A stretch of 64,000 nt of DNA from Sipunculus nudus (taxonomy: Eukaryota > Annelida > Sipuncula > Golfingiida > Sipunculidae). The position numbers were made by a program, and so were the translations under genes. This document shows positions 1 to 25,498 of the stretch, piece by piece. The stretch is taken from NCBI GenBank assembly GCA_026874595.1, contig CM049318.1, forward strand, positions 44,992,456 through 45,056,455, read 5' to 3'. Below the pieces are notes generated by a model. That model worked only from the letters and a program-made list of their open reading frames with translations, was not told the DNA's origin and did not search any database. Every line of letters starts with the position of its first letter. The first letter of the stretch is position 1.

Positions 1-35
1 CGATGGGATGAAAATTGCGACCTGTAGAGACTGGA

Positions 36-72
36 CAGACAAACAAGCAAACAAACAAACAGACAAACAGAC
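36..72. repeat. CAAA/CAGA microsatellite within each A unit
   Basis: A run of CAAA tetranucleotides edged by CAGA units. It recurs at the same offset in every copy and is a constant part of the unit. Copy 1 has one interruption (G at 47). Copy 19 has one extra A. On the minus strand it translates to a cysteine/valine/leucine/phenylalanine pattern, a composition artefact and not a protein signal. Confidence 0.95.
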
Positions 73-160
73 ATCCGCGACTGACCAACCAGCTTGCGAA
101 AATCGAAGATTTCCGGCAAGCAATAAAGTTGTGACTGTGCCTCCAACATGTATGATCATA

Positions 161-249
161 GATGGGGCCCGGAGAGGCCGTCACGCACCGCTGCACACGC
201 CGGCCGCCCACCGTAGGGACCCTGCCGCCACTTGCGGCGACGGCACGTG
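161..249. other. GC-rich, CpG-dense patch of the A unit
   Basis: About 90 bp that is clearly GC-rich inside an otherwise AT-rich unit, with many CpG dinucleotides and palindromes such as GGGCCC and GCCGGC. It ends in a CACGTG E-box core (244-249); a second CACGTG lies at 403-408. It recurs at the same offset in each copy. It could be a small CpG island or promoter-like element, or simply an inserted fragment. No start site can be inferred from sequence alone. Confidence 0.7.
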
Positions 250-408
250 TCTTCGTGGTTTGGCGAAAAACGGCGCGAGATTTGACGAGACTAACAATGT
301 GACCCCTGAATGTGACTGCGAGTGTCAGCCGCTATCCAGCGCTGCAAACCATGTGTCTGTAGCGTGAAAAATGACATAATTATAGGCATTTCTTTGAATG
401 GTCACGTG

Positions 409-425
409 TTCTCGTTTCACGAGAA
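409..425. other. Perfect 7-bp hairpin, 3-nt loop (B1)
   Basis: TTCTCGT, loop TTC, then ACGAGAA. The stem is perfect, and the counterpart in B2 at 865-881 keeps the same stem with loop TTG. The two halves of the unit are otherwise strongly diverged here, so the shared palindrome is the best-preserved local feature. Present at the same offset in other copies. Confidence 0.85.
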
Positions 426-582
426 ACGGTGCGAGATATGACGAGACTTGCGATTGAATGACTAAGAACTAGAGGGATGCTGTCTAACGCCAAACACCAG
501 ACCTTTCTATCGCAAATATCAACAGAGAGAGAAGCTGGAAAACTCCGAATTTTCAGATTGTCAAGTTTTACCCCAAAATTTG

Positions 583-596
583 GTAACCATGGTAAC
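583..596. promoter_or_regulatory. RFX X-box-like palindrome in the A unit
   Basis: GTAACCATGGTAAC fits the X-box consensus bound by RFX/DAF-19 factors (GTNRCC, 0-3 bases, RGYAAC) at every specified position with a 2-base spacer. It recurs at the same offset in nearly all copies; copy 18 has lost a base in the right half-site. This is a motif match only. A 14-bp near-palindrome can arise by chance and is then multiplied by array amplification. Confidence 0.4.
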
Positions 597-730
597 GGCA
601 GCACAAAGCAACATGTGCGAAGGGATAAGCCAATGTTCCTAGTTTCAGATACGACCCAAAAAATGGTGTCACGTTTAATATTTTTTGAGATATTGCAGAA
701 AAATGATATGTTACAGTGTTTCATGTACCA

Positions 731-743
731 CGCCCCCTGGTGG
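731..743 (-). promoter_or_regulatory. CTCF-like site, one per A unit
   Basis: On the minus strand this reads CCACCAGGGGGCG, identical to the 13-bp core of the vertebrate CTCF consensus as I know it; the flanking TAG upstream also fits. The same 13 bp are unaltered in all 19 full copies, at 731, 2000, 3269, 4538, 5807, 7076, 8345, 9614, 10883, 12157, 13421, 14690, 15959, 17229, 18499, 19769, 21040, 22305 and 23578 (left ends). All lie in the same orientation. CTCF is conserved across Bilateria, where it organises chromatin loops and boundaries. Binding here is an inference. Confidence 0.6.
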
Positions 744-864
744 CTATTTCCAAAAAATGAAAAATTGATTTCGAGATATTTCTAAACAACACAAAATATG
801 TCATTTTCAAAGTCATAGTTTAAAAAATGCGACCTGTAAGCCATATCTAATGAAATCTCGAAAA

Positions 865-881
865 TTCTCGTTTGACGAGAA
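865..881. other. Perfect 7-bp hairpin, 3-nt loop (B2)
   Basis: TTCTCGT, loop TTG, then ACGAGAA, exactly 456 bp downstream of the B1 hairpin. It is followed in both halves by a GGTGCGAGAT...ACGAGACT stretch. Confidence 0.85.
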
Positions 882-1179
882 ATGGTGCGAGATTTTACGA
901 GACTTTTACTTGTATGATAAAAAGCTTATTTAGTACTATATGATGCAAAAAACTAGGAATCTCTAGCTTTAAAAATGACAAAGTTAGAAAAATTAGGCCT
1001 TTTATTTTCGAAAATCATGAGATTTCCCCCAAAATGTGTAACCATAGAAACAGCAGATTTCAGCAACATATACATCAGAAGAAAGGCCTTGGAATGCCGA
1101 TTAAAAGGAGCCATGTTTGAAGTGGCTATGACAAATAGTAATGGAGATATGAAGAAAAGAGCACTTTAGGAACTTTTGA

Positions 1180-1204
1180 TGACCTTGACCTTGACCTTTG
1201 ACCT
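1180..1204 (-). promoter_or_regulatory. Cluster of four AGGTCA half-sites in the A unit
   Basis: On the minus strand four perfect AGGTCA hexamers lie in 25 bp: a DR1 pair (1192-1204, one-base spacer A) followed by two hexamers with no spacer. Two of them sit in the extended TCAAGGTCA context used by ERR/Ftz-F1-type monomeric nuclear receptors, and DR1 is the classic element for RXR/HNF4-type dimers. Repeated in each full unit; copies 18 and 19 have one-base insertions here. TGACCT runs are common in dispersed repeats of marine invertebrates, so this may be inherited repeat sequence without function. Confidence 0.45.
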
Positions 1205-1269
1205 ATATTGCCCAAAAACAATAGGCTTCTTGCATTTTTGATTCTACACAAACTGTGAAAGTTTGAAAG

Positions 1270-4200
1270 CGATGGGATGAAAATTGCGACCTGTAGAGAC
1301 TGGACAGACAAACAAACAAACAAACAAACAGACAAACAGACATCCGCGACTGACCAACCAGCTTGCGAAAATCGAAGATTTCCGGCAAGCAATAAAGTTG
1401 TGACTGTGCCTCCAACATGTATGATCATAGATGGGGCCCGGAGAGGCCGTCACGCACCGCTGCACACGCCGGCCGCCCACCGTAGGGACCCTGCCGCCAC
1501 TTGCGGCGACGGCACGTGTCTTCGTGGTTTGGCGAAAAACGGCGCGAGATTTGACGAGACTAACAATGTGACCCCTGAATGTGACTGCGAGTGTCAGCCG
1601 CTATCCAGCGCTGCAAACCATGTGTCTGTAGCGTGAAAAATGACATAATTATAGGCATTTCTTTGAATGGTCACGTGTTCTCGTTTCACGAGAAACGGTG
1701 CGAGATATGACGAGACTTGCGATTGAATGACTAAGAACTAGAGGGATGCTGTCTAACGCCAAACACCAGACCTTTCTATCGCAAATATCAACAGAGAGAG
1801 AAGCTGGAAAACTCCGAATTTTCAGATTGTCAAGTTTTACCCCAAAATTTGGTAACCATGGTAACGGCAGCACAAAGCAACATGTGCGAAGGGATAAGCC
1901 AATGTTCCTAGTTTCAGATACGACCCAAAAAATGGTGTCACGTTTAATATTTTTTGAGATATTGCAGAAAAATGATATGTTACAGTGTTTCATGTACCAC
2001 GCCCCCTGGTGGCTATTTCCAAAAAATGAAAAATTGATTTCGAGATATTTCTAAACAACACAAAATATGTCATTTTCAAAGTCATAGTTTAAAAAATGCG
2101 ACCTGTAAGCCATATCTAATGAAATCTCGAAAATTCTCGTTTGACGAGAAATGGTGCGAGATTTTACGAGACTTTTACTTGTATGATAAAAAGCTTATTT
2201 AGTACTATATGATGCAAAAAACTAGGAATCTCTAGCTTTAAAAATGACAAAGTTAGAAAAATTAGGCCTTTTATTTTCGAAAATCATGAGATTTCCCCCA
2301 AAATGTGTAACCATAGAAACAGCAGATTTCAGCAACATATACATCAGAAGAAAGGCCTTGGAATGCCGATTAAAAGGAGCCATGTTTGAAGTGGCTATGA
2401 CAAATAGTAATGGAGATATGAAGAAAAGAGCACTTTAGGAACTTTTGATGACCTTGACCTTGACCTTTGACCTATATTGCCCAAAAACAATAGGCTTCTT
2501 GCATTTTTGATTCTACACAAACTGTGAAAGTTTGAAAGCGATGGGATGAAAATTGCGACCTGTAGAGACTGGACAGACAAACAAACAAACAAACAAACAG
2601 ACAAACAGACATCCGCGACTGACCAACCAGCTTGCGAAAATCGAAGATTTCCGGCAAGCAATAAAGTTGTGACTGTGCCTCCAACATGTATGATCATAGA
2701 TGGGGCCCGGAGAGGCCGTCACGCACCGCTGCACACGCCGGCCGCCCACCGTAGGGACCCTGCCGCCACTTGCGGCGACGGCACGTGTCTTCGTGGTTTG
2801 GCGAAAAACGGCGCGAGATTTGACGAGACTAACAATGTGACCCCTGAATGTGACTGCGAGTGTCAGCCGCTATCCAGCGCTGCAAACCATGTGTCTGTAG
2901 CGTGAAAAATGACATAATTATAGGCATTTCTTTGAATGGTCACGTGTTCTCGTTTCACGAGAAACGGTGCGAGATATGACGAGACTTGCGATTGAATGAC
3001 TAAGAACTAGAGGGATGCTGTCTAACGCCAAACACCAGACCTTTCTATCGCAAATATCAACAGAGAGAGAAGCTGGAAAACTCCGAATTTTCAGATTGTC
3101 AAGTTTTACCCCAAAATTTGGTAACCATGGTAACGGCAGCACAAAGCAACATGTGCGAAGGGATAAGCCAATGTTCCTAGTTTCAGATACGACCCAAAAA
3201 ATGGTGTCACGTTTAATATTTTTTGAGATATTGCAGAAAAATGATATGTTACAGTGTTTCATGTACCACGCCCCCTGGTGGCTATTTCCAAAAAATGAAA
3301 AATTGATTTCGAGATATTTCTAAACAACACAAAATATGTCATTTTCAAAGTCATAGTTTAAAAAATGCGACCTGTAAGCCATATCTAATGAAATCTCGAA
3401 AATTCTCGTTTGACGAGAAATGGTGCGAGATTTTACGAGACTTTTACTTGTATGATAAAAAGCTTATTTAGTACTATATGATGCAAAAAACTAGGAATCT
3501 CTAGCTTTAAAAATGACAAAGTTAGAAAAATTAGGCCTTTTATTTTCGAAAATCATGAGATTTCCCCCAAAATGTGTAACCATAGAAACAGCAGATTTCA
3601 GCAACATATACATCAGAAGAAAGGCCTTGGAATGCCGATTAAAAGGAGCCATGTTTGAAGTGGCTATGACAAATAGTAATGGAGATATGAAGAAAAGAGC
3701 ACTTTAGGAACTTTTGATGACCTTGACCTTGACCTTTGACCTATATTGCCCAAAAACAATAGGCTTCTTGCATTTTTGATTCTACACAAACTGTGAAAGT
3801 TTGAAAGCGATGGGATGAAAATTGCGACCTGTAGAGACTGGACAGACAAACAAACAAACAAACAAACAGACAAACAGACATCCGCGACTGACCAACCAGC
3901 TTGCGAAAATCGAAGATTTCCGGCAAGCAATAAAGTTGTGACTGTGCCTCCAACATGTATGATCATAGATGGGGCCCGGAGAGGCCGTCACGCACCGCTG
4001 CACACGCCGGCCGCCCACCGTAGGGACCCTGCCGCCACTTGCGGCGACGGCACGTGTCTTCGTGGTTTGGCGAAAAACGGCGCGAGATTTGACGAGACTA
4101 ACAATGTGACCCCTGAATGTGACTGCGAGTGTCAGCCGCTATCCAGCGCTGCAAACCATGTGTCTGTAGCGTGAAAAATGACATAATTATAGGCATTTCT

Positions 4201-7200
4201 TTGAATGGTCACGTGTTCTCGTTTCACGAGAAACGGTGCGAGATATGACGAGACTTGCGATTGAATGACTAAGAACTAGAGGGATGCTGTCTAACGCCAA
4301 ACACCAGACCTTTCTATCGCAAATATCAACAGAGAGAGAAGCTGGAAAACTCCGAATTTTCAGATTGTCAAGTTTTACCCCAAAATTTGGTAACCATGGT
4401 AACGGCAGCACAAAGCAACATGTGCGAAGGGATAAGCCAATGTTCCTAGTTTCAGATACGACCCAAAAAATGGTGTCACGTTTAATATTTTTTGAGATAT
4501 TGCAGAAAAATGATATGTTACAGTGTTTCATGTACCACGCCCCCTGGTGGCTATTTCCAAAAAATGAAAAATTGATTTCGAGATATTTCTAAACAACACA
4601 AAATATGTCATTTTCAAAGTCATAGTTTAAAAAATGCGACCTGTAAGCCATATCTAATGAAATCTCGAAAATTCTCGTTTGACGAGAAATGGTGCGAGAT
4701 TTTACGAGACTTTTACTTGTATGATAAAAAGCTTATTTAGTACTATATGATGCAAAAAACTAGGAATCTCTAGCTTTAAAAATGACAAAGTTAGAAAAAT
4801 TAGGCCTTTTATTTTCGAAAATCATGAGATTTCCCCCAAAATGTGTAACCATAGAAACAGCAGATTTCAGCAACATATACATCAGAAGAAAGGCCTTGGA
4901 ATGCCGATTAAAAGGAGCCATGTTTGAAGTGGCTATGACAAATAGTAATGGAGATATGAAGAAAAGAGCACTTTAGGAACTTTTGATGACCTTGACCTTG
5001 ACCTTTGACCTATATTGCCCAAAAACAATAGGCTTCTTGCATTTTTGATTCTACACAAACTGTGAAAGTTTGAAAGCGATGGGATGAAAATTGCGACCTG
5101 TAGAGACTGGACAGACAAACAAACAAACAAACAAACAGACAAACAGACATCCGCGACTGACCAACCAGCTTGCGAAAATCGAAGATTTCCGGCAAGCAAT
5201 AAAGTTGTGACTGTGCCTCCAACATGTATGATCATAGATGGGGCCCGGAGAGGCCGTCACGCACCGCTGCACACGCCGGCCGCCCACCGTAGGGACCCTG
5301 CCGCCACTTGCGGCGACGGCACGTGTCTTCGTGGTTTGGCGAAAAACGGCGCGAGATTTGACGAGACTAACAATGTGACCCCTGAATGTGACTGCGAGTG
5401 TCAGCCGCTATCCAGCGCTGCAAACCATGTGTCTGTAGCGTGAAAAATGACATAATTATAGGCATTTCTTTGAATGGTCACGTGTTCTCGTTTCACGAGA
5501 AACGGTGCGAGATATGACGAGACTTGCGATTGAATGACTAAGAACTAGAGGGATGCTGTCTAACGCCAAACACCAGACCTTTCTATCGCAAATATCAACA
5601 GAGAGAGAAGCTGGAAAACTCCGAATTTTCAGATTGTCAAGTTTTACCCCAAAATTTGGTAACCATGGTAACGGCAGCACAAAGCAACATGTGCGAAGGG
5701 ATAAGCCAATGTTCCTAGTTTCAGATACGACCCAAAAAATGGTGTCACGTTTAATATTTTTTGAGATATTGCAGAAAAATGATATGTTACAGTGTTTCAT
5801 GTACCACGCCCCCTGGTGGCTATTTCCAAAAAATGAAAAATTGATTTCGAGATATTTCTAAACAACACAAAATATGTCATTTTCAAAGTCATAGTTTAAA
5901 AAATGCGACCTGTAAGCCATATCTAATGAAATCTCGAAAATTCTCGTTTGACGAGAAATGGTGCGAGATTTTACGAGACTTTTACTTGTATGATAAAAAG
6001 CTTATTTAGTACTATATGATGCAAAAAACTAGGAATCTCTAGCTTTAAAAATGACAAAGTTAGAAAAATTAGGCCTTTTATTTTCGAAAATCATGAGATT
6101 TCCCCCAAAATGTGTAACCATAGAAACAGCAGATTTCAGCAACATATACATCAGAAGAAAGGCCTTGGAATGCCGATTAAAAGGAGCCATGTTTGAAGTG
6201 GCTATGACAAATAGTAATGGAGATATGAAGAAAAGAGCACTTTAGGAACTTTTGATGACCTTGACCTTGACCTTTGACCTATATTGCCCAAAAACAATAG
6301 GCTTCTTGCATTTTTGATTCTACACAAACTGTGAAAGTTTGAAAGCGATGGGATGAAAATTGCGACCTGTAGAGACTGGACAGACAAACAAACAAACAAA
6401 CAAACAGACAAACAGACATCCGCGACTGACCAACCAGCTTGCGAAAATCGAAGATTTCCGGCAAGCAATAAAGTTGTGACTGTGCCTCCAACATGTATGA
6501 TCATAGATGGGGCCCGGAGAGGCCGTCACGCACCGCTGCACACGCCGGCCGCCCACCGTAGGGACCCTGCCGCCACTTGCGGCGACGGCACGTGTCTTCG
6601 TGGTTTGGCGAAAAACGGCGCGAGATTTGACGAGACTAACAATGTGACCCCTGAATGTGACTGCGAGTGTCAGCCGCTATCCAGCGCTGCAAACCATGTG
6701 TCTGTAGCGTGAAAAATGACATAATTATAGGCATTTCTTTGAATGGTCACGTGTTCTCGTTTCACGAGAAACGGTGCGAGATATGACGAGACTTGCGATT
6801 GAATGACTAAGAACTAGAGGGATGCTGTCTAACGCCAAACACCAGACCTTTCTATCGCAAATATCAACAGAGAGAGAAGCTGGAAAACTCCGAATTTTCA
6901 GATTGTCAAGTTTTACCCCAAAATTTGGTAACCATGGTAACGGCAGCACAAAGCAACATGTGCGAAGGGATAAGCCAATGTTCCTAGTTTCAGATACGAC
7001 CCAAAAAATGGTGTCACGTTTAATATTTTTTGAGATATTGCAGAAAAATGATATGTTACAGTGTTTCATGTACCACGCCCCCTGGTGGCTATTTCCAAAA
7101 AATGAAAAATTGATTTCGAGATATTTCTAAACAACACAAAATATGTCATTTTCAAAGTCATAGTTTAAAAAATGCGACCTGTAAGCCATATCTAATGAAA

Positions 7201-10200
7201 TCTCGAAAATTCTCGTTTGACGAGAAATGGTGCGAGATTTTACGAGACTTTTACTTGTATGATAAAAAGCTTATTTAGTACTATATGATGCAAAAAACTA
7301 GGAATCTCTAGCTTTAAAAATGACAAAGTTAGAAAAATTAGGCCTTTTATTTTCGAAAATCATGAGATTTCCCCCAAAATGTGTAACCATAGAAACAGCA
7401 GATTTCAGCAACATATACATCAGAAGAAAGGCCTTGGAATGCCGATTAAAAGGAGCCATGTTTGAAGTGGCTATGACAAATAGTAATGGAGATATGAAGA
7501 AAAGAGCACTTTAGGAACTTTTGATGACCTTGACCTTGACCTTTGACCTATATTGCCCAAAAACAATAGGCTTCTTGCATTTTTGATTCTACACAAACTG
7601 TGAAAGTTTGAAAGCGATGGGATGAAAATTGCGACCTGTAGAGACTGGACAGACAAACAAACAAACAAACAAACAGACAAACAGACATCCGCGACTGACC
7701 AACCAGCTTGCGAAAATCGAAGATTTCCGGCAAGCAATAAAGTTGTGACTGTGCCTCCAACATGTATGATCATAGATGGGGCCCGGAGAGGCCGTCACGC
7801 ACCGCTGCACACGCCGGCCGCCCACCGTAGGGACCCTGCCGCCACTTGCGGCGACGGCACGTGTCTTCGTGGTTTGGCGAAAAACGGCGCGAGATTTGAC
7901 GAGACTAACAATGTGACCCCTGAATGTGACTGCGAGTGTCAGCCGCTATCCAGCGCTGCAAACCATGTGTCTGTAGCGTGAAAAATGACATAATTATAGG
8001 CATTTCTTTGAATGGTCACGTGTTCTCGTTTCACGAGAAACGGTGCGAGATATGACGAGACTTGCGATTGAATGACTAAGAACTAGAGGGATGCTGTCTA
8101 ACGCCAAACACCAGACCTTTCTATCGCAAATATCAACAGAGAGAGAAGCTGGAAAACTCCGAATTTTCAGATTGTCAAGTTTTACCCCAAAATTTGGTAA
8201 CCATGGTAACGGCAGCACAAAGCAACATGTGCGAAGGGATAAGCCAATGTTCCTAGTTTCAGATACGACCCAAAAAATGGTGTCACGTTTAATATTTTTT
8301 GAGATATTGCAGAAAAATGATATGTTACAGTGTTTCATGTACCACGCCCCCTGGTGGCTATTTCCAAAAAATGAAAAATTGATTTCGAGATATTTCTAAA
8401 CAACACAAAATATGTCATTTTCAAAGTCATAGTTTAAAAAATGCGACCTGTAAGCCATATCTAATGAAATCTCGAAAATTCTCGTTTGACGAGAAATGGT
8501 GCGAGATTTTACGAGACTTTTACTTGTATGATAAAAAGCTTATTTAGTACTATATGATGCAAAAAACTAGGAATCTCTAGCTTTAAAAATGACAAAGTTA
8601 GAAAAATTAGGCCTTTTATTTTCGAAAATCATGAGATTTCCCCCAAAATGTGTAACCATAGAAACAGCAGATTTCAGCAACATATACATCAGAAGAAAGG
8701 CCTTGGAATGCCGATTAAAAGGAGCCATGTTTGAAGTGGCTATGACAAATAGTAATGGAGATATGAAGAAAAGAGCACTTTAGGAACTTTTGATGACCTT
8801 GACCTTGACCTTTGACCTATATTGCCCAAAAACAATAGGCTTCTTGCATTTTTGATTCTACACAAACTGTGAAAGTTTGAAAGCGATGGGATGAAAATTG
8901 CGACCTGTAGAGACTGGACAGACAAACAAACAAACAAACAAACAGACAAACAGACATCCGCGACTGACCAACCAGCTTGCGAAAATCGAAGATTTCCGGC
9001 AAGCAATAAAGTTGTGACTGTGCCTCCAACATGTATGATCATAGATGGGGCCCGGAGAGGCCGTCACGCACCGCTGCACACGCCGGCCGCCCACCGTAGG
9101 GACCCTGCCGCCACTTGCGGCGACGGCACGTGTCTTCGTGGTTTGGCGAAAAACGGCGCGAGATTTGACGAGACTAACAATGTGACCCCTGAATGTGACT
9201 GCGAGTGTCAGCCGCTATCCAGCGCTGCAAACCATGTGTCTGTAGCGTGAAAAATGACATAATTATAGGCATTTCTTTGAATGGTCACGTGTTCTCGTTT
9301 CACGAGAAACGGTGCGAGATATGACGAGACTTGCGATTGAATGACTAAGAACTAGAGGGATGCTGTCTAACGCCAAACACCAGACCTTTCTATCGCAAAT
9401 ATCAACAGAGAGAGAAGCTGGAAAACTCCGAATTTTCAGATTGTCAAGTTTTACCCCAAAATTTGGTAACCATGGTAACGGCAGCACAAAGCAACATGTG
9501 CGAAGGGATAAGCCAATGTTCCTAGTTTCAGATACGACCCAAAAAATGGTGTCACGTTTAATATTTTTTGAGATATTGCAGAAAAATGATATGTTACAGT
9601 GTTTCATGTACCACGCCCCCTGGTGGCTATTTCCAAAAAATGAAAAATTGATTTCGAGATATTTCTAAACAACACAAAATATGTCATTTTCAAAGTCATA
9701 GTTTAAAAAATGCGACCTGTAAGCCATATCTAATGAAATCTCGAAAATTCTCGTTTGACGAGAAATGGTGCGAGATTTTACGAGACTTTTACTTGTATGA
9801 TAAAAAGCTTATTTAGTACTATATGATGCAAAAAACTAGGAATCTCTAGCTTTAAAAATGACAAAGTTAGAAAAATTAGGCCTTTTATTTTCGAAAATCA
9901 TGAGATTTCCCCCAAAATGTGTAACCATAGAAACAGCAGATTTCAGCAACATATACATCAGAAGAAAGGCCTTGGAATGCCGATTAAAAGGAGCCATGTT
10001 TGAAGTGGCTATGACAAATAGTAATGGAGATATGAAGAAAAGAGCACTTTAGGAACTTTTGATGACCTTGACCTTGACCTTTGACCTATATTGCCCAAAA
10101 ACAATAGGCTTCTTGCATTTTTGATTCTACACAAACTGTGAAAGTTTGAAAGCGATGGGATGAAAATTGCGACCTGTAGAGACTGGACAGACAAACAAAC

Positions 10201-11421
10201 AAACAAACAAACAGACAAACAGACATCCGCGACTGACCAACCAGCTTGCGAAAATCGAAGATTTCCGGCAAGCAATAAAGTTGTGACTGTGCCTCCAACA
10301 TGTATGATCATAGATGGGGCCCGGAGAGGCCGTCACGCACCGCTGCACACGCCGGCCGCCCACCGTAGGGACCCTGCCGCCACTTGCGGCGACGGCACGT
10401 GTCTTCGTGGTTTGGCGAAAAACGGCGCGAGATTTGACGAGACTAACAATGTGACCCCTGAATGTGACTGCGAGTGTCAGCCGCTATCCAGCGCTGCAAA
10501 CCATGTGTCTGTAGCGTGAAAAATGACATAATTATAGGCATTTCTTTGAATGGTCACGTGTTCTCGTTTCACGAGAAACGGTGCGAGATATGACGAGACT
10601 TGCGATTGAATGACTAAGAACTAGAGGGATGCTGTCTAACGCCAAACACCAGACCTTTCTATCGCAAATATCAACAGAGAGAGAAGCTGGAAAACTCCGA
10701 ATTTTCAGATTGTCAAGTTTTACCCCAAAATTTGGTAACCATGGTAACGGCAGCACAAAGCAACATGTGCGAAGGGATAAGCCAATGTTCCTAGTTTCAG
10801 ATACGACCCAAAAAATGGTGTCACGTTTAATATTTTTTGAGATATTGCAGAAAAATGATATGTTACAGTGTTTCATGTACCACGCCCCCTGGTGGCTATT
10901 TCCAAAAAATGAAAAATTGATTTCGAGATATTTCTAAACAACACAAAATATGTCATTTTCAAAGTCATAGTTTAAAAAATGCGACCTGTAAGCCATATCT
11001 AATGAAATCTCGAAAATTCTCGTTTGACGAGAAATGGTGCGAGATTTTACGAGACTTTTACTTGTATGATAAAAAGCTTATTTAGTACTATATGATGCAA
11101 AAAACTAGGAATCTCTAGCTTTAAAAATGACAAAGTTAGAAAAATTAGGCCTTTTATTTTCGAAAATCATGAGATTTCCCCCAAAATGTGTAACCATAGA
11201 AACAGCAGATTTCAGCAACATATACATCAGAAGAAAGGCCTTGGAATGCCGATTAAAAGGAGCCATGTTTGAAGTGGCTATGACAAATAGTAATGGAGAT
11301 ATGAAGAAAAGAGCACTTTAGGAACTTTTGATGACCTTGACCTTGACCTTTGACCTATATTGCCCAAAAACAATAGGCTTCTTGCATTTTTGATTCTACA
11401 CAAACTGTGAAAGTTTGAAAG
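1270..11421 (+). repeat. Macrosatellite A copies 2-9, apparently identical
   Basis: Eight consecutive units of exactly 1,269 bp. The open frames of these units translate identically in every copy and I found no difference on reading them. Such uniformity over about 10 kb means very recent homogenisation or amplification, or an assembler that repeated one consensus, in which case the true copy number is uncertain. Confidence 0.93.
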
Positions 11422-12696: not shown

Positions 12697-13959
12697 CGAT
12701 GGGATGAAAATTGCGACCTGTAGAGACTGGACAGACAAACAAACAAACAAACAAACAGACAAACAGACATCCGCGACTGACCAACCAGCTTGCGAAAATC
12801 GAAGATTTCCGGCAAGCAATAAAGTTGTGACTGTGCCTCCAACATGTATGATCATAGATGGGGCCCGGAGAGGCCGTCACGCACCGCTGCACACGCCGGC
12901 CGCCCACCGTAGGGACCCTGCCGCCACTTGCGGCGACGGCACGTGTCTTCGTGGTTTGGCGAAAAACGGCGCGAGATTTGACGAGACTAACAATGTGACC
13001 CCTGAATGTGACTGCGAGTGTCAGCCGCTATCCAGCGCTGCCAAACCATGTGTCTGTAGCGTGAAAAATGACATAATTATAGGCATTTCTTTGAATGGTC
13101 ACGTGTTCTCGTTTCACGAGAAACGGTGCGAGATATGACGAGACTTGCGATTGAATGACTAAGAACTAGAGGGATGCTGTCCTAACGCCAAACACCAGAC
13201 CTTAAATATCAACAGAGAGAGAAGCTGGAAAACTCCGAATTTTCAGATTGTCAAGTTTTACCCCAAAATTTGGTAACCATGGTAACGGCAGCACAAAGCA
13301 ACATGTGCGAAGGGATAAGCCAATGTTCCTAGTTTCAGATACGACCCAAAAAATGGTGTCACGTTTAATATTTTTTGAGATATTGCAGAAAAATGATATG
13401 TTACAGTGTTTCATGTACCACGCCCCCTGGTGGCTATTTCCAAAAAATGAAAAATTGATTTCGAGATATTTCTAAACAACACAAAATATGTCATTTTCAA
13501 AGTCATAGTTTAAAAAATGCGACCTGTAAGCCATATCTAATGAAATCTCGAAAATTCTCGTTTGACGAGAAATGGTGCGAGATTTTACGAGACTTTTACT
13601 TGTATGATAAAAAGCTTATTTAGTACTATATGATGCAAAAAACTAGGAATCTCTAGCTTTAAAAATGACAAAGTTAGAAAAATTAGGCCTTTTATTTTCG
13701 AAAATCATGAGATTTCCCCCAAAATGTGTAACCATAGAAACAGCAGATTTCAGCAACATATACATCAGAAGAAAGGCCTTGGAATGCCGATTAAAAGGAG
13801 CCATGTTTGAAGTGGCTATGACAAATAGTAATGGAGATATGAAGAAAAGAGCACTTTAGGAACTTTTGATGACCTTGACCTTGACCTTTGACCTATATTG
13901 CCCAAAAACAATAGGCTTCTTGCATTTTTGATTCTACACAAACTGTGAAAGTTTGAAAG
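12697..13959 (+). repeat. Macrosatellite A copy 11, 1,263 bp with 8-bp deletion
   Basis: Lacks TCTATCGC after position 13203 and has two one-base C insertions (near 13041 and 13181), net -6. The 8-bp loss is the only indel longer than 2 bp in the array and is a usable marker for this copy. Confidence 0.9.
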
Positions 13960-16900
13960 CGATGGGATGAAAATTGCGACCTGTAGAGACTGGACAGACA
14001 AACAAACAAACAAACAAACAGACAAACAGACATCCGCGACTGACCAACCAGCTTGCGAAAATCGAAGATTTCCGGCAAGCAATAAAGTTGTGACTGTGCC
14101 TCCAACATGTATGATCATAGAAGGGGCCCGGAGAGGCCGTCACGCACCGCTGCACACGCCGGCCGCCCACCGTAGGGACCCTGCCGCCACTTGCGGCGAC
14201 GGCACGTGTCTTCGTGGTTTGGCGAAAAACGGCGCGAGATTTGACGAGACTAACAATGTGACCCCTGAATGTGACTGCGAGTGTCAGCCGCTATCCAGCG
14301 CTGCAAACCATGTGTCTGTAGCGTGAAAAATGACATAATTATAGGCATTTCTTTGAATGGTCACGTGTTCTCGTTTCACGAGAAACGGTGCGAGATATGA
14401 CGAGACTTGCGATTGAATGACTAAGAACTAGAGGGATGCTGTCTAACGCCAAACACCAGACCTTTCTATCGCAAATATCAACAGAGAGAGAAGCTGGAAA
14501 ACTCCGAATTTTCAGATTGTCAAGTTTTACCCCAAAATTTGGTAACCATGGTAACGGCAGCACAAAGCAACATGTGCGAAGGGATAAGCCAATGTTCCTA
14601 GTTTCAGATACGACCCAAAAAATGGTGTCACGTTTAATATTTTTTGAGATATTGCAGAAAAATGATATGTTACAGTGTTTCATGTACCACGCCCCCTGGT
14701 GGCTATTTCCAAAAAATGAAAAATTGATTTCGAGATATTTCTAAACAACACAAAATATGTCATTTTCAAAGTCATAGTTTAAAAAATGCGACCTGTAAGC
14801 CATATCTAATGAAATCTCGAAAATTCTCGTTTGACGAGAAATGGTGCGAGATTTTACGAGACTTTTACTTGTATGATAAAAAGCTTATTTAGTACTATAT
14901 GATGCAAAAAACTAGGAATCTCTAGCTTTAAAAATGACAAAGTTAGAAAAATTAGGCCTTTTATTTTCGAAAATCATGAGATTTCCCCCAAAATGTGTAA
15001 CCATAGAAACAGCAGATTTCAGCAACATATACATCAGAAGAAAGGCCTTGGAATGCCGATTAAAAGGAGCCATGTTTGAAGTGGCTATGACAAATAGTAA
15101 TGGAGATATGAAGAAAAGAGCACTTTAGGAACTTTTGATGACCTTGACCTTGACCTTTGACCTATATTGCCCAAAAACAATAGGCTTCTTGCATTTTTGA
15201 TTCTACACAAACTGTGAAAGTTTGAAAGCGATGGGATGAAAATTGCGACCTGTAGAGACTGGACAGACAAACAAACAAACAAACAAACAGACAAACAGAC
15301 ATCCGCGACTGACCAACCAGCTTGCGAAAATCGAAGATTTCCGGCAAGCAATAAAGTTGTGACTGTGCCTCCAACATGTATGATCATAGATGGGGCCCGG
15401 AGAGGCCGTCACGCACCGCTGCACACGCCGGCCGCCCACCGTAGGGACCCTGCCGCCACTTGCGGCGACGGCACGTGTCTTCGTGGTTTGGCGAAAAACG
15501 GCGCGAGATTTGACGAGACTAACAATGTGACCCCTGAATGTGACTGCGAGTGTCAGCCGCTATCCAGCGCTGCAAACCATGTGTCTGTAGCGTGAAAAAT
15601 GACATAATTATAGGCATTTCTTTGAATGGTCACGTGTTCTCGTTTCACGAGAAACGGTGCGAGATATGACGAGACTTGCGATTGAATGACTAAGAACTAG
15701 AGGGATGCTGTCTAACGCCAAACACCAGACCTTTCTATCGCAAATATCAACAGAGAGAGAAGCTGGAAAACTCCGAATTTTCAGATTGTCAAGTTTTACC
15801 CCAAAATTTGGTAACCATGGTAACGGCAGCACAAAGCAACATGTGCGAAGGGATAAGCCAATGTTCCTAGTTTCAGATACGACCCAAAAAATGGTGTCAC
15901 GTTTAATATTTTTTGAGATATTGCAGAAAAATGATATGTTACAGTGTTTCATGTACCACGCCCCCTGGTGGCTATTTCCAAAAAATGAAAAATTGATTTC
16001 GAGATATTTCTAAACAACACAAAATATGTCATTTTCAAAGTCATAGTTTAAAAAATGCGACCTGTAAGCCATATCTAATGAAATCTCGAAAATTCTCGTT
16101 TGACGAGAAATGGTGCGAGATTTTACGAGACTTTTACTTGTATGATAAAAAGCTTATTTAGTACTATATGATGCAAAAAACTAGGAATCTCTAGCTTTAA
16201 AAATGACAAAGTTAGAAAAATTAGGCCTTTTATTTTCGAAAATCATGAGATTTCCCCCAAAATGTGTAACCATAGAAACAGCAGATTTCAGCAACATATA
16301 CATCAGAAGAAAGGCCTTGGAATGCCGATTAAAAGGAGCCATGTTTGAAGTGGCTATGACAAATAGTAATGGAGATATGAAGAAAAGAGCACTTTAGGAA
16401 CTTTTGATGACCTTGACCTTGACCTTTGACCTATATTGCCCAAAAAACAATAGGCTTCTTGCATTTTTGATTCTACACAAACTGTGAAAGTTTGAAAGCG
16501 ATGGGATGAAAATTGCGACCTGTAGAGACTGGACAGACAAACAAACAAACAAACAAACAGACAAACAGACATCCGCGACTGACCAACCAGCTTGCGAAAA
16601 TCGAAGATTTCCGGCAAGCAATAAAGTTGTGACTGTGCCTCCAACATGTATGATCATAGATGGGGCCCGGAGAGGCCGTCACGCACCGCTGCACACGCCG
16701 GCCGCCCACCGTAGGGACCCTGCCGCCACTTGCGGCGACGGCACGTGTCTTCGTGGTTTGGCGAAAAACGGCGCGAGATTTGACGAGACTAACAATGTGA
16801 CCCCTGAATGTGACTGCGAGTGTCAGCCGCTATCCAGCGCTGCAAACCATGTGTCTGTAGCGTGAAAAATGACATAATTATAGGCATTTCTTTGAATGGT

Positions 16901-17767
16901 CACGTGTTCTCGTTTCACGAGAAACGGTGCGAGATATGACGAGACTTGCGATTGAATGACTAAGAACTAGAGGGATGCTGTCTAACGCCAAACACCAGAC
17001 CTTTCTATCGCAAATATCAACAGAGAGAGAAGCTGGAAAACTCCGAATTTTCAGATTGTCAAGTTTTACCCCAAAATTTGGTAACCATGGTAACGGCAGC
17101 ACAAAGCAACATGTGCGAAGGGATAAGCCAATGTTCCTAGTTTCAGATACGACCCAAAAAATGGTGTCACGTTTAATATTTTTTGAGATATTGCAGAAAA
17201 ATGATATGTTACAGTGTTTCATGTACCACGCCCCCTGGTGGCTATTTCCAAAAAATGAAAAATTGATTTCGAGATATTTCTAAACAACACAAAATATGTC
17301 ATTTTCAAAGTCATAGTTTAAAAAATGCGACCTGTAAGCCATATCTAATGAAATCTCGAAAATTCTCGTTTGACGAGAAATGGTGCGAGATTTTACGAGA
17401 CTTTTACTTGTATGATAAAAAGCTTATTTAGTACTATATGATGCAAAAAACTAGGAATCTCTAGCTTTAAAAATGACAAAGTTAGAAAAATTAGGCCTTT
17501 TATTTTCGAAAATCATGAGATTTCCCCCAAAATGTGTAACCATAGAAACAGCAGATTTCAGCAACATATACATCAGAAGAAAGGCCTTGGAATGCCGATT
17601 AAAAGGAGCCATGTTTGAAGTGGCTATGACAAATAGTAATGGAGATATGAAGAAAAGAGCACTTTAGGAACTTTTGATGACCTTGACCTTGACCTTTGAC
17701 CTATATTGCCCAAAAACAATAGGCTTCTTGCATTTTTGATTCTACACAAACTGTGAAAGTTTGAAAG
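13960..17767 (+). repeat. Macrosatellite A copies 12-14
   Basis: Near-standard units of 1,269, 1,270 and 1,269 bp. Copy 12 has a T-to-A substitution at 14122, next to the GGGCCC palindrome. Copy 13 has an extra A in the run near 16442. Copy 14 looks standard. Confidence 0.9.
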
Positions 17768-20308
17768 CGATGGGATGAAAATTGCGACCTGTAGAGACTG
17801 GACAGACAAACAAACAAACAAACAAACAGACAAACAGACATCCGCGACTGACCAACCAGCTTGCGAAAATCGAAGATTTCCGGCAAGCAATAAAGTTGTG
17901 ACTGTGCCTCCAACATGTATGATCATAGATGGGGCCCGGAGAGGCCGTCACGCACCGCTGCACACGCCGGCCGCCCACCGTAGGGACCCTGCCGCCACTT
18001 GCGGCGACGGCACGTGTCTTCGTGGTTTGGCGAAAAACGGCGCGAGATTTGACGAGACTAACAATGTGACCCCTGAATGTGACTGCGAGTGTCAGCCGCT
18101 ATCCAGCGCTGCAAACCATGTGTCTGTAGCGTGAAAAATGACATAATTATAGGCATTTCTTTGAATGGTCACGTGTTCTCGTTTCACGAGAAACGGTGCG
18201 AGATATGACGAGACTTGCGATTGAATGACTAAGAACTAGAGGGATGCTGTCTAACGCCAAACACCAGACCTTTCTATCGCAAATATCAACAGAGAGAGAA
18301 GCTGGAAAACTCCGAATTTTCAGATTGTCAAGTTTTACCCCAAAATTTGGTAACCATGGTAACGGCAGCACAAAGCAACATGGTGCGAAGGGATAAGCCA
18401 ATGTTCCTAGTTTCAGATACGACCCAAAAAATGGTGTCACGTTTAATATTTTTTGAGATATTGCAGAAAAATGATATGTTACAGTGTTTCATGTACCACG
18501 CCCCCTGGTGGCTATTTCCAAAAAATGAAAAATGATTTCGAGATATTTCTAAACAACACAAAATATGTCATTTTCAAAGTCATAGTTTAAAAAATGCGAC
18601 CTGTAAGCCATATCTAATGAAATCTCGAAAATTCTCGTTTGACGAGAAATGGTGCGAGATTTTACGAGACTTTTACTTGTATGATAAAAAGCTTATTTAG
18701 TACTATATGATGCAAAAAACTAGGAATCTCTAGCTTTAAAAATGACAAAGTTAGAAAAATTAGGCCTTTTATTTTCGAAAATCATGGAGATTTCCCCCAA
18801 AATGTGTAACCATAGAAACAGCAGATTTCAGCAACATATACATCAGAAGAAAGGCCTTGGAATGCCGATTAAAAGGAGCCATGTTGAAGTGGCTATGACA
18901 AATAGTAATGGAGATATGAAGAAAAGAGCACTTTAGGAACTTTTGATGACCTTGACCTTGACCTTTGACCTATATTGCCCAAAAACAATAGGCTTCTTGC
19001 ATTTTTGATTCTACACAAACTGTGAAAGTTTGAAAGCGATGGGATGAAAATTGCGACCTGTAGAGACTGGACAGACAAACAAACAAACAAACAAACAGAC
19101 AAACAGACATCCGCGACTGACCAACCAGCTTGCGAAAATCGAAGATTTCCGGCAAGCAATAAAGTTTGTGACTGTGCCTCCAACATGTATGATCATAGAT
19201 GGGGCCCGGAGAGGCCCGTCACGCACCGCTGCACACGCCGGCCGCCCACCGTAGGGACCCTGCCGCCACTTGCGGCGACGGCACGTGTCTTCGTGGTTTG
19301 GCGAAAAAACGGCGCGAGATTTGACGAGACTAACAATGTGACCCCTGAATGTGACTGCGAGTGTCAGCCGCTATCCAGCGCTGCAAACCATGTGTCTGTA
19401 GCGTGAAAAATGACATAATTATAGGCATTTCTTTGAATGGTCACGTGTTCTCGTTTCACGAGAAACGGTGCGAGATATGACGAGACTTGCGATTGAATGA
19501 CTAAGAACTAGAGGGATGCTGTCTAACGCCAAACACCAGACCTTTCTATCGCAAATATCAACAGAGAGAGAAGCTGGAAACTCCGAATTTTCAGATTGTC
19601 AAGTTTTACCCCAAAATTGGTAACCATGGTAACGGCAGCACAAAGCAACATGTGCGAAAGGGATAAGCCAATGTTCCTAGTTTCAGATACGACCCAAAAA
19701 ATGGTGTCACGTTTAATATTTTTTGAGATATTGCAGAAAAATGATATGTTACAGTGTTTCATGTACCACGCCCCCTGGTGGCTATTTCCAAAAAATGAAA
19801 AATTGATTTCGAGATATTCTAAACAACACAAAATATGTCATTTTCAAAGTCATAGTTTAAAAAATGCGACCTGTAAGCCATATCTAATGAAATCTCGAAA
19901 ATTCTCGTTTGACGAGAAATGGTGCGAGATTTTACGAGACTTTTACTTGTATGATAAAAAAGCTTATTTAGTACTATATGATGCAAAAAACTAGGAATCT
20001 CTAGCTTTAAAAATGACAAAGTTAGAAAAAATTAGGCCTTTTATTTTCGAAAATCATGAGATTTCCCCCAAAATGTGTAACCATAGAAACAGCAGATTTC
20101 AGCAACATATACATCAGAAGAAAGGCCTTGGAATGCCGATTAAAAGGAGCCATGTTTGAAGTGGCTATGACAAATAGTAATGGAGATATGAAGAAAAGAG
20201 CACTTTAGGAACTTTTGATGACCTTGACCTTGACCTTTGACCTATATTGCCCAAAAACAATAGGCTTCTTGCATTTTTGATTCTACACAAACTGTGAAAG
20301 TTTGAAAG
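17768..20308 (+). repeat. Macrosatellite A copies 15-16, indel-bearing
   Basis: Copy 15 (17768-19036) has four single-base indels that cancel to 1,269 bp: extra G near 18382 and 18786, lost T near 18532 and 18884. Copy 16 (19037-20308) has nine, six gains and three losses, giving 1,272 bp. No substitution was noticed. CTCF-like cores at 18499 and 19769 are intact. Confidence 0.88.
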
Positions 20309-21578
20309 CGATGGGATGAAAATTGCGACCTGTAGAGACTGGACAGACAAACAAACAAACAAACAAACAGACAAACAGACATCCGCGACTGACCAACCAG
20401 CTTGCGAAAATCGAAGATTTCCGGCAAGCAATAAAGTTGTGACTGTGCCTCCAACATGTATGATCATAGATGGGGCCCGGAGAGGCCGTCACGCACCGCT
20501 GCACACGCCGGCCGCCCACCGTAGGGACCCTGCCGCCACTTGCGGCGACGGCACGTGTCTTCGTGGTTTGGCGAAAAACGGCGCGAGATTTGACGAGACT
20601 AACAATGTGACCCTTGAATGTGACTGCGAGTGTCAGCCGCTATCCAGCGCTGCAAACCATGTGTCTGTAGCGTGAAAAATGACATAATTATAGGCATTTC
20701 TTTGAATGGTCCGTGTTCTCGTTTCACGAGAAACGGTGCGAGATATGACGAGACTTGCGATTGAATGACTAAGAACTAGAGGGATTGCTGTCTAACGCCA
20801 AACACCAGACCTTTCTATCGCAAATATCAACAGAGAGAGAAGCTGGAAAACTCCGAATTTTCAGATTGTCAAGTTTTACCCCAAAATTTGGTAACCATGG
20901 TAACGGCAGCACAAAGCAACATGTGCGAAGGGATAAGCCAATGTTCCTAGTTTCAGATACGACCCAAAAAATGGTGTCACGGTTTAATATTTTTTGAGAT
21001 ATTGCAGAAAAATGATATGTTACAGTGTTTCATGTACCACGCCCCCTGGTGGCTATTTCCAAAAAAATGAAAATTGATTTCGAGATATTTCTAAACAACA
21101 CAAAATATGTCATTTTCAAAGTCATAGTTTAAAAATGCGACCTGTAAGCCATATCTAATGAAATCTCCGAAAATTCTCGTTTGACGAGAAATGGTGCGAG
21201 ATTTTACGAGACTTTTACTTGTATGATAAAAAGCTTATTTAGTACTATATGATGCAAAAAACTAGGAATCTCTAGCTTTAAAAATGACAAAGTTAGAAAA
21301 ATTAGGCCTTTTATTTTCGAAAATCATGAGATTTCCCCCAAATGTGTAACCATAGAAACAGCAGATTCAGCAACATTATACATCAGAAGAAAGGCCTTGG
21401 AATGCCGATTAAAAGGAGCCATGTTTGAAGTGGCTATGACAAATAGTAATGGAGATATGAAGAAAAGAGCACTTTAGGAACTTTTGATGACCTTGACCTT
21501 GACCTTTGACCTATATTGCCCAAAAACAATAGGCTTCTTGCATTTTTGATTCTACACAAACTGTGGAAAGTTTGAAAG
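20309..21578 (+). repeat. Macrosatellite A copy 17, 1,270 bp
   Basis: Carries a C-to-T change near 20614 and eleven single-base indels (six gains, five losses). One removes an A from the CACGTG element near 20711. The CTCF-like core at 21040-21052 is intact. Confidence 0.88.
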
Positions 21579-22844
21579 CGATGGGATGAAAATTGCGACC
21601 TGTAGAGGACTGGACAGGACAAACAAACAAACAAACAAACAGACAAACAGACATCCGCGACTGACCAACCAGCTTGCGAAAATCGAAGATTTCCGGCAAG
21701 CAATAAAGTTGTGACTGTGCCTCCAACATGTATGATCATAGATGGGGCCCGGAGAGGCCGTCACGCACCGCTGCACACGCCGGCCGCCCACCGTAGGGAC
21801 CCTGCCGCCACTTGCGGCGACGGCACGTGTCTTCGTGGTTTGGCGAAAACGGCGCGAGATTTGACGAGACTAACAATGTGACCCCTGAATGTGACATGCG
21901 AGTGTCAGCCGCTATCCAGCGCTGCAAACCATGTGTCTGTAGTGAAAAATGACATAATTATAGGCATTTCTTGATGGTCACGTGTTCTCGTTTCACGAGA
22001 ACGGTGCGAGATATGACGAGACTTGCGATTGAATGACTAAGAACTTAGAGGGATGCTGTCTAACGCCAAACACCAGGACCTTTCTATCGCAAATATCAAC
22101 AGAGAGAGAAGCTGGAAAACTCCGAATTTTCAGATTGTCAAGTTTTACCCCAAAATTGGTAACCATGTAACGGCAGCACAAAGCAACATGTGCGAAGGGA
22201 TAAGCCAATGTTCCTAGTTTCAGATACGACCCCAAAAAATGGTGTCACGTTTAATATTTTTGAGATATGCAGAAAAATGATATGTTACAGTGTTTCATGT
22301 ACCACGCCCCCTGGTGGCTATTTCCAAAAAATGAAAAATTGATTTCGAGGATATTCTAACAACACAAAAATATGTCATTTTTCAAAGTCATAGTTTAAAA
22401 AATGCGACCTGTAAGCCATATCTAATGAAATCTCGAAAATTCTCGTTTGACGAGAAATGGTGCGAGATTTTACGAGACTTTTACTTGTATGATAAAAAGC
22501 TTATTTAGTACTATATGATGCAAAAAACTAGGGAATCTCTAGCTTTAAAAATGACAAAGTTAGAAAATTAGGCCTTTTATTTTCGAAAATCATGAGATTT
22601 CCCCAAAATGTGTAACCATAGAAACAGCAGATTTCAGCAACATATACATCAGAAGAAAGGCCTTGGAATGCCGAATTAAAAGGAGCCATGTTTGAGTGGC
22701 TATGACAAATAGTAATGGAGATATGAAGAAAAGAGCACTTTAGGAACTTTTGATGACCTTGACCTTGACCTTTGACCCTATATTGCCCAAAAACAATAGG
22801 CTTCTTGCATTTTTGATTCTACACAAACTGTGAAAGTTTGAAAG
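21579..22844 (+). repeat. Macrosatellite A copy 18, 1,266 bp, most indels
   Basis: About 26 indel events, all of one or two bases, and no substitution: 12 bases gained and 15 lost, which accounts for the length of 1,266 bp. Affected elements include the X-box-like palindrome (a G lost near 22168) and the TGACCT cluster (an extra C near 22778). The CTCF-like core at 22305-22317 is untouched. Confidence 0.88.
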
Positions 22845-24114
22845 CGATGGGATGAAAATTGCGACCTGTAGAGACTGGACAGACAAACAAACAAACAAAC
22901 AAAACAGACAAACAGACATCCGCGACTGACCAACCAGCTTGCGAAAATCGAAGATTTCCGGCAAGCAATAAAGTTGTGACTGTGCCTCCAACATGTATGA
23001 TCATAGATGGGGCCCGGAGAGGCCGTCACGCACCGCTGCACACGCCGGCCGCCCACCCGTAGGGACCCTGCCGCCACTTGCGGCGACGGCACGTGTCTTC
23101 GTGGTTTGGCGAAAAACGGCGCGAGATTTGACGAGACTAACAATGTGACCCCTGAATGTGACTGCGAGTGTCAGCCGCTATCCAGCGCTGCAAACCATGT
23201 GTCTGTAGCGTGAAAAATGACATAATTATAGGCATTTCTTTGAATGGTCACGTGTTCTCGTTTCACGAGAAACGGTGCGAGATATGACGAGACTTGCGAT
23301 TGAATGACTAAGAACTAGAGGGATGCTGTCTAACGCCAAAACACCAGACCTTTCTATCGCAAATATCAACAGAGAGAGAAGCTGGAAAACTCCGAATTTT
23401 CAGATTGTCAAGTTTTACCCCAAAATTTGGTAACCATGGTAACGGCAGCACAAAGCAACATGTGCGAAGGGATAAGCCAATGTTCCTAGTTTCAGATACG
23501 ACCCAAAAAATGGTGTCACGTTTAATATTTTTTGAGATATTGCAGAAAAATGATATGTTACAGTGTTTCATGTACCACGCCCCCTGGTGGCTATTTCCAA
23601 AAATGAAAAATTGATTTCGAGATATTTTCTAAACAACACAAAATATGTCATTTTCAAAGTCATAGTTTAAAAAATGCGACCTGTAAGCCATATCTAATGA
23701 ATCTCGAAAATTCTCGTTTGACGAGAAATGGTGCGAGATTTTACGAGACTTTTACTTGTATGATAAAAAGCTTATTTAGTACTATATGATGCAAAAAAAC
23801 TAGGAATCTCTAGCTTTAAAAATGACAAAGTTAGAAAAAATTAGGCCTTTTATTTCGAAAATCATGAGATTTCCCCAAAATGTGTAACCATAGAAACAGC
23901 AGATTTCAGCAACATATACATCAGAAGAAAGGCCTTGGAATGCGATTAAAAGGAAGCCATGTTTGAAGTGCTATGACAAATAGTAATGGAGATATGAAGA
24001 AAAGAGCACTTTAGGAACTTTTGATGACCTTGACCTTGACCTTTTGACCTATATTGCCCAAAACAATAGGCTTCTTGCATTTTTGATTCTACACAAACTG
24101 TGAAAGTTTGAAAG
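22845..24114 (+). repeat. Macrosatellite A copy 19, 1,270 bp
   Basis: Fifteen single-base indels (eight gains, seven losses) mostly in homopolymers, no clear substitution. CTCF-like core at 23578-23590 intact; the TGACCT cluster has one extra T near 24044. Confidence 0.88.
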
Positions 24115-24597
24115 CGATGGGATGAAATTTGCGACCTGTAGAGACTGGACCAGACAAACAAACAAACAAACAAACAGACAAACAGACATCCGCGACTGAC
24201 CAACCAGCTTGCGAAAATCGAAGATTTCCGGCAAGCAATAAAGTTGTGACTGTGCCTCCAACATGTATGATCATAGATGGGGCCCGGAGAGGCCGTCACG
24301 CACCGCTGCACACGCCGGCCGCCCACCGTAGGGACCCTGCCGCCACTTGCGGCGACGGCACGTGTCTTCGTGGTTTGGCGAAAAACGGCGCGAGATTTGA
24401 CGAGGACTAACAATGTGACCCCTGAATGTGACTGCGAGTGTCAGCCGCTATCCAGCGCTGCAAACCATGTGTCTGTAGCGTGAAAAATGACATAATTATA
24501 GGCATTTCTTTGAATGGTCACGTGTTCTCGTTTCACGAGAAACGGTGCGAGATATGACGAGACTTGCGATTGAATGACTAAGAACTAGAGGGATGCT
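24115..24597 (+). repeat. Macrosatellite A copy 20, partial (483 bp)
   Basis: Covers the microsatellite, GC-rich patch and start of B1, including the hairpin, then stops at the N run before the X-box and CTCF-like sites. It shows small changes (AAATTT for AAAATT near 24126, an extra C near 24151, an extra G near 24405). The array very probably continues into the gap. Confidence 0.93.
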
Positions 24598-25097: not shown

Positions 25098-25498
25098 AAG
25101 ATCGTGGTTTGTGCAAAAATGGCCGATTTAAATTGCGAAAGAAGCGTTTTAGAAGCTTCATTAGGCCATTTAGACCCTGTTACAAACGTCGTTTTCGCCG
25201 AAATCAGCTCGGTTTTCGCGTAATACAAGATCGTGTTTTCTGCAAAAGTGGCCGATTTAAATTGCGAAAGAAGCGTTTTAGAAGCTTCATTAGGCCATTT
25301 AGACCCTGTTACAAACGTCGTTTTCGCCGAAATCAGCTCGGTTTTCGCGTAATACAAGATCGTGTTTTCTGCAAAAGTGGCCGATTTAAATTGCGAAAGA
25401 AGCGTTTTAGAAGCTTCATTAGGCCATTTAGACCCTGTTACAAACGTCGTTTTCGCCGAAATGGGCTCGGTTTTCGCGTAATACAAGATCGTGTTTTG
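25098..25498 (+). repeat. End of a canonical satellite B run
   Basis: Just over three canonical monomers, cut on the left by the gap. They correspond to the end of the canonical run in the next HOR (around 28712 onward), so the contig begins inside an HOR. Confidence 0.9.

Follow-up and report, generated by a model that had tools for sequence, protein, structure and literature searches.

A tandem array with one predicted CTCF-type site per unit as a likely block of a genome-wide repeat superfamily in Sipunculus nudus

A stretch of 64,000 nucleotides from Sipunculus nudus, here referred to as the window (C13:44992456-45056455 in an assembly of 1,426,538,692 bases and 153 contigs), starts with a tandem array of 1,269-bp units, each of which contains one 13-mer of the type bound by the zinc-finger protein CTCF. 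The array is likely to represent a single tandem block, of higher-order structure, within a repeat superfamily that is spread over the genome and carries CTCF-type sites, at which CTCF binding is predicted. Within this family it is an ordinary member and not a unique chromosome landmark.

The array and its sites

The initial annotation had reported one exact 13-mer per unit on the minus strand, and an exact search of the window confirmed this: 19 copies of CGCCCCCTGGTGG on the plus strand, corresponding to CCACCAGGGGGCG on the minus strand, follow each other at spacings of 1264-1274 bp, and no further CCACCAGGGGGCG place within 2 mismatches was found in the window outside these sites. Scoring of the unit with a CTCF matrix, likewise suggested there, yielded 20.9 of 29.1 bits for each of the 19 sites and 9.4 bits for the next best place in the window, the matrix being the vertebrate JASPAR MA0139.1, from which the host preference may differ. 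The array comprises the following features.

1..24116, minus (site-bearing) strand: 19 full 1,269-bp units; the array runs on leftward beyond the window
731..743, minus strand: first of the 19 CTCF-type sites (CCACCAGGGGGCG), exact match, 20.9 of 29.1 bits with the vertebrate matrix
Starts 2000, 3269, 4538, 5807, 7076, 8345, 9614, 10883 and 12157, minus strand: further sites, exact matches
Starts 13421, 14690, 15959, 17229, 18499, 19769, 21040, 22305 and 23578, minus strand: remaining sites, exact matches
1678..2133, minus strand: second unit, A half (409-864 in unit coordinates), containing the CTCF-type site, delimited by self-comparison of the unit and aligned copies
2134..2496, minus strand: second unit, B half (865 to about 1227 in unit coordinates), with AGGTCA-type direct repeats at the site-homologous place, about 2449-2472 (hand-counted from the unit)
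24117..24597, minus strand: partial 20th unit without a site, truncated by an assembly gap

The unit is internally duplicated (about 456 bp), positions 409-449 matching 865-905 at 90% and 564-614 matching 1020-1069 at 76% identity. The A half contains the CTCF-type site CCACCAGGGGGCGTGG, and the B half displays at the homologous place TGACCTTGACCTTGACCTTTGACC with AGGTCA-type direct repeats, which resemble nuclear-receptor half-sites. Near-identical composite units built from diverged subunits, as found here, are the mark of a higher-order satellite. The fraction of guanine plus cytosine (GC) in the unit is 0.413.

A coding function of the array was considered and rejected, as no stop-to-stop frame of units 1 and 2 exceeds 133 residues and the frames overlap and lie on both strands. 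The Rfam scan at gathering threshold gave no match, the tRNA search no tRNA, and at the site the motif strand folds into a hairpin no better than shuffled sequences (z 0.46). The unit also contains one YY1-like word, AACATGGC (YY1 consensus AANATGGC), several hundred base pairs off the CTCF site, where about 0.15 would be expected by chance.

A genome-wide repeat family

The 13-mer CCACCAGGGGGCG occurs 3,767 times (1,736 + 2,031) in the 1.43-Gb genome and its reversal not once. Of these places 100, all on C1, were classified: 68 are located inside the exact flanks of the close family and 13 are further matches to a motif-masked family profile, which assigns 81 of the 100 to one dispersed and tandem repeat family; 16 have no profile match and 3 were unfetched. 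Among the 16 unmatched places, one (L067) shares 75% identity over 279 bp with an old family locus, four represent a different repeat, present at each of two places as a pair of copies separated by 4,854 bp, and the likeness among the remaining 11 is restricted to matches of 20 bp or less at the motif. The repeat seen four times (L071, L072, L076 and L077; C1:10096800-10102150 and C1:50596200-50601550) is unrelated to the family despite its identical 13-mer, and its paired near-identical contexts are arranged as in the two ends of a long terminal repeat element.

Anchors placed elsewhere in the unit detected 2,130 copies (up to 3 mismatches; control 37), 2,255 (control 0) and 2,340 (control 0), and the motif flanks TACCA-N13-CTATTTCC were found in 2,820 copies (control 52); a right-hand anchor was weak, with 1,317 copies versus 591 in the control. 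Among the matches listed, family members come from C1-C9 and C13; some arrays lie close to the end of their contig, and C1 has a cluster at mid-chromosome. An old-type pattern, CCRCYAGRKGGCGCTG, occurs 6,829 times genome-wide versus once in reversed form, many neighbours among the 100 matches listed being 327-334 bp apart. The sites contained in both the 13-mer and the old-type counts, represented by CCACCAGGGGGCGCTG, amount to 116, with no reversed copy. Both the consensus of the repeat and thousands of its copies contain the CTCF-type motif, which is the pattern of a repeat-borne expansion.

Older family members, monomers of 327-331 bp, contain sites like CCGCTAGGGGGCGCTG and CCACTAGAGGGCGCTG and occur in tandem and within scattered multi-kb composites; the tandem arrays of one locus (L094) have periods of 148, 327 and 331 bp. 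Three 9.9-kb loci, chosen for a 13-mer, have about 2.07 kb in common at 95-97% identity, and their comparison defined no transposon ends. Ten family loci contain 4-9 places of at least 14 bits each; 49 of 50 Markov controls have none and one has a single place.

Old monomers were selected blind to the motif letters. The profile gave 212 hits, 188 of which include both flanks of the site; 54 of the 188 are of the B type, with AGGTCA words at the place of the site, and 66 of the other 134 are less than 80% identical to the window unit and were taken as old monomers. A place of at least 14 bits lies within 20 bp of the expected spot in 56 of the 66 (median 21.6), compared with none of 130 control places at a distance of 70 bp and none of the 54 B-type monomers. 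The motif-blind test strengthened the case for the CTCF-type site as an enduring component of the family and weakened that for constraint (see below).

The host CTCF

A query with the human CTCF fingers, for which 137 of 1,826 candidates were scored, matched C11:67037659-67038510 (L001) with 57% identity and an E value of 3.7e-99, the next match having 6.7e-53. A count by eye gives eleven C2H2 fingers in the open frame, for which human CTCF is the top PDB match (E 2e-109); Pfam recognised C2H2 fingers only. The core of the motif is read by CTCF fingers 3-5. In L001 these retain the human helix letters TSGELVRH, SKLKRH and DTYKLKRH, as read off the PDB-match alignment, and the helix of finger 6 differs, with QSNSLKA for human QSGTMKM. 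Departures from the eleven-finger form are described for hemichordates, which lost one finger, and echinoderms, which lost two (PMC13317027).

The host genome thus encodes a CTCF orthologue with matching DNA-reading fingers. The naming of the 13-mer as a CTCF-type word by the initial annotation also holds up, given 3,767 forward versus 0 reversed copies, 11 of the 100 places listed outside the family, and the orthologue itself. The changed finger 6 and the G at matrix position 6 in old monomers may point to a shift of the host preference. Further C2H2 zinc-finger frames are clustered on C16, C7, C9 and C6, the finger query having 374 matches, many of those listed on C16.

Is the motif constrained?

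The initial annotation had argued from a 13-mer left untouched in copies with 15-26 indels elsewhere. An alignment of the 19 units to unit 2 shows in total 3 substitutions, 75 one-base indels and 6 longer indels; 73 of the 75 lengthen or shorten a homopolymer run, 51 are found in the three final units, next to the 500-N gap, and 8 in unit 10, away from it. Indel-rich copies are most simply attributed to long-read consensus errors. In the multiple alignment, 574 of the 1,257 13-mers of the unit are invariant across all 19 copies, and hence an arbitrary 13-mer has a chance of about 46% of equal invariance. Invariance within an array of such near-identical units was therefore rejected as a sign of selection, and the argument falls.

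More informative comparisons are those between related copies. In recent copies identified by fixed flanks, the exact 13-mer is present in 94 of 99 family rows (100 listed, 1 unrelated) and an adjacent control 13-mer is unchanged in 73 of 98 (100 listed, 2 unrelated), family and unrelated rows having been sorted by eye in both counts. The excess of changed rows in the control arises because two of its variants recur in 11 and 9 rows. The 67 A-type copies, whose loci were not chosen by the 13-mer (24 representatives at 93% clustering), have an identity of 0.846 in the motif window versus 0.823 in all columns; at other clustering levels the motif window ranks 100/310, 55/235 and 20/275. The A/B sorting saw the motif letters and required at least 9 of the 13 motif columns, which biases towards motif conservation, and even so no excess was found.

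For the old monomers the outcome depends on the alignment. In the motif-blind version, where masking of the motif misplaced some rows at this spot, clustering at 97% (45 representatives) gave a divergence of 0.154 in the motif versus 0.192 (rank 32/156). Realignment with the motif visible, which favours the motif, gave 0.150 versus 0.258 with 22 representatives (rank 16/191) and 0.121 versus 0.226 with 45 (rank 5/191). A permutation test, in which matrix columns were shuffled among positions of equal consensus base, returned P values of 0.024 and 0.010 (motif-blind) and of 0.009 and 0.020 (realigned); without matrix position 6 they were 0.069 and 0.046 (motif-blind) and 0.014 and 0.046 (realigned), all of them optimistic due to the relatedness of monomer copies by descent. 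A set of 32 old monomers picked by eye (rank 15/191, P 0.003-0.022) was set aside, as picking favoured recognisable sites; its excess conservation disappeared or became smaller in the motif-blind alignment.

Several results limit the case made for the site. Recent copies display 5 distinct variants of the motif versus 6 of the adjacent control, which does not demonstrate selection, the A-type motif window ranks only 110/309 at 93% clustering, and the old monomers, in the motif-blind alignment clustered at 90% (21 representatives), have a divergence of 0.209 versus 0.205 (rank 80/156), the old-monomer loci being from C1 and C13 only. In addition, the window site has a weaker 3' end, where TGG replaces CTG. 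Extra conservation of the motif is thus modest and alignment-dependent. CTCF-specific constraint is suggestive at best in the old monomers and none is demonstrated in recent arrays. The expectation of the initial annotation that the 13-mer would be spared in related copies consequently finds a divided answer, with 5 versus 6 distinct variants in recent copies and, in old monomers, a range from unremarkable to most conserved according to the alignment.

Orientation and chromosomal placement

The array-bearing contig (C13:44980963-45017052, about 36 kb) consists of the array only and contains 28 sites in one orientation, 1 in L090, 8 in L003, whose units are 99.9-100% identical, and 19 in the window. 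Left of the gap of this contig, the fetched pieces L090, L091 and L092, which extend to C13:44942456 with 44945456-44962455 left out, reveal the array in the opposite orientation at 96.9-98.6% identity, with an interruption at L091:1-725, where the sequence has no match to the unit. The co-orientation described in the initial annotation is therefore valid for the 28 sites inside one contig of about 36 kb and breaks down across the left gap, where the array is reversed. The array contig can be misplaced or misoriented by scaffolding.

The right-hand part of the window is occupied by a different satellite.

24598..25097, no strand: assembly gap of 500 N, its flanks joined by scaffolding only
25098..64000, no strand: 129-bp satellite array with a second gap (50189-50688) and orientation changes; no CTCF-like place of at least 14 bits

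A 54-mer of this satellite has 4,758 exact copies genome-wide and no reversed one. Among the 100 matches listed, 41 map to C1:65.198-65.814 Mb (two blocks; C1 is 110.9 Mb long) and at least 59 to C2:68.568-68.716 Mb (two blocks); dense copies of the 1,269-bp family are also found at C1 64.2-66 Mb. Its restriction, among the matches listed, to one narrow region per chromosome suggests that the 129-bp satellite is a candidate centromeric repeat and that the window array is probably pericentromeric.

This placement is weakened by several facts. In the window a gap separates the 129-bp satellite from the family array, so that the link depends on scaffolding, and among the matches listed the satellite lies on two contigs only. 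At four fetched C1 edges no gap-free join of the 129-bp satellite to the family was found: at one edge diverged family monomers follow past a 500-N gap, at another a gap is followed by no family match, and two show no family match. Moreover, family arrays are situated near contig ends on C7 (from 8.7 kb), C9 (237-417 kb) and C8 (80.65-80.72 of 80.87 Mb).

Within the window, the 129-bp array reverses its orientation at 52368 and from 59327 onwards and contains recurrent irregular units of 95 bp and 224 bp. Its first monomer includes AAAATGGC, a YY1-like word.

Alternative explanations

The initial annotation had proposed an independent DXZ4-like boundary, that is, a locus-specific insulator at the window array which anchors long loops via co-oriented CTCF sites. 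DXZ4 is a single X-linked array (PMC3218863), and DXZ4/Dxz4 and the array described here share the tandem organisation, one CTCF-type site per unit and a common polarity within the contig (PMC3218863, PMC6985041). The 28 same-orientation sites in one contig, the strong matrix score and the CTCF gene in the genome are favourable to the proposal. However, DXZ4 is one X-linked GC-rich array with 3-kb units, in which CTCF sites are paired with YY1 sites and CTCF binds on the inactive X (PMC3218863, PMC6985041), whereas the present family is dispersed, with 41% GC, 1.27-kb units and predicted CTCF sites. Of the DXZ4 traits compared, the polarity with one site per unit was found, on one contig only; a single locus and a GC-rich unit were not, and their failure makes a DXZ4-like locus-specific boundary unlikely, all the support for it being common to the other family members as well. 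Other contigs contain the 1,269-bp unit too, in numerous arrays and dispersed copies, the array across the left gap is oppositely oriented, the right-hand neighbour is the 129-bp satellite, and a unit GC of 41% contrasts with the GC-rich DXZ4 (PMC3218863). With the family on C1-C9 and C13 among the matches listed, a GC fraction of 0.413 and the failed invariance argument, the proposal is not supported; we regard it as very improbable, and see no sign of the window array being a locus-specific boundary.

Two other explanations concern the site itself. The repeat might keep the site for its own spread if copies with an intact site were amplified better, for example via open germ-line chromatin. 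Changes seen in old monomers agree more closely with the CTCF matrix than with matrices whose columns are permuted (P 0.010-0.024 motif-blind, 0.009-0.020 realigned), the realigned 13 columns rank 16/191 or 5/191 with 22 or 45 representatives, and none of the 5 damaged recent variants recurs, compared with two control variants that do (11 and 9 rows among the matches listed). These data are opposed by the motif-blind divergences (0.209 versus 0.205 at 90%, 0.154 versus 0.192 at 97%), by P values of 0.014-0.069 without matrix position 6, which relatedness renders optimistic, by the whole A-type set without excess conservation, and by the B-type monomers, which lack the site and spread too (54 of the 188 hits covering the place). 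We consider this scenario conceivable, although improbable. Slightly more doubtful is a chance resemblance, in which a CTCF-like word in the repeat serves another protein or none and the host CTCF prefers otherwise. The very many other C2H2 zinc-finger frames of the host (374 matches to the CTCF finger query), a host finger 6 unlike the human one and an old consensus with G at matrix position 6, which the vertebrate matrix disfavours, would agree with it, but the 13-mer also stands at 11 of the 100 listed places without other likeness to the family or to one another and in the other repeat, whose copies are spaced by 4,854 bp, has 0 reversed copies genome-wide, and a CTCF-type site is retained in 56 of the 66 old monomers.

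A possible mechanism and related systems

For the reading of the array as one block of a genome-wide superfamily the following scenario may be envisaged. Unequal exchange or conversion would have amplified and homogenised a composite unit, giving rise to arrays near centromeres and near some chromosome ends, and each unit would thereby inherit one site in equal orientation. Host CTCF can probably bind the accessible copies. Dispersed copies might then act as local insulators or cohesin stops, analogous to the sites borne by short interspersed nuclear elements (SINEs) in mammals; in arrays that are probably pericentromeric the sites would more likely be passengers, or be bound only if chromatin and methylation permit.

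For SINE-borne CTCF-site expansions, dispersal driven by repeats is established in mammals (Schmidt et al. 2012, PMC3368268). In both cases thousands of CTCF-type sites are spread over a single genome by a repeat; unlike the mammalian SINEs, the carrier here is a tandem or satellite repeat with monomers of about 330 bp and higher-order units of 1,269 bp, and its sites are predicted from sequence. Human alpha satellite provides another parallel, with near-identical composite units of diverged subunits, blocks in opposite orientation and other satellites adjoining; in contrast, the subunits of the present family measure about 330 and 148 bp, some copies are scattered at a distance from the arrays, and a CTCF-type site takes the place of the CENP-B box. 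A literature search retrieved, among the top titles listed, none on CTCF-site-bearing satellites in invertebrates, which is no proof of absence, as most subscription papers were outside its coverage.

A further-reaching proposal, which we judge rather unlikely, is that the satellite/transposon superfamily owes its success to CTCF, and that about 10,000 sites would recruit CTCF and cohesin to arrays and scattered elements. This figure combines the 3,767 exact 13-mers and the 6,829 old-type 16-mers, with 116 in both, most but not all of them within the family. If the proposal were true, repeats, not genes, would hold most of the strong CTCF sites of the animal and would shape its chromosome folding, with CTCF-type sites every 330 or 1,269 bp at (peri)centromeric and subtelomeric arrays and in scattered elements. 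Satellites with thousands of strong oriented CTCF-type sites would offer a natural experiment on CTCF titration, cohesin stops and silencing, and on the spread of architectural sites by repeats beyond mammals.

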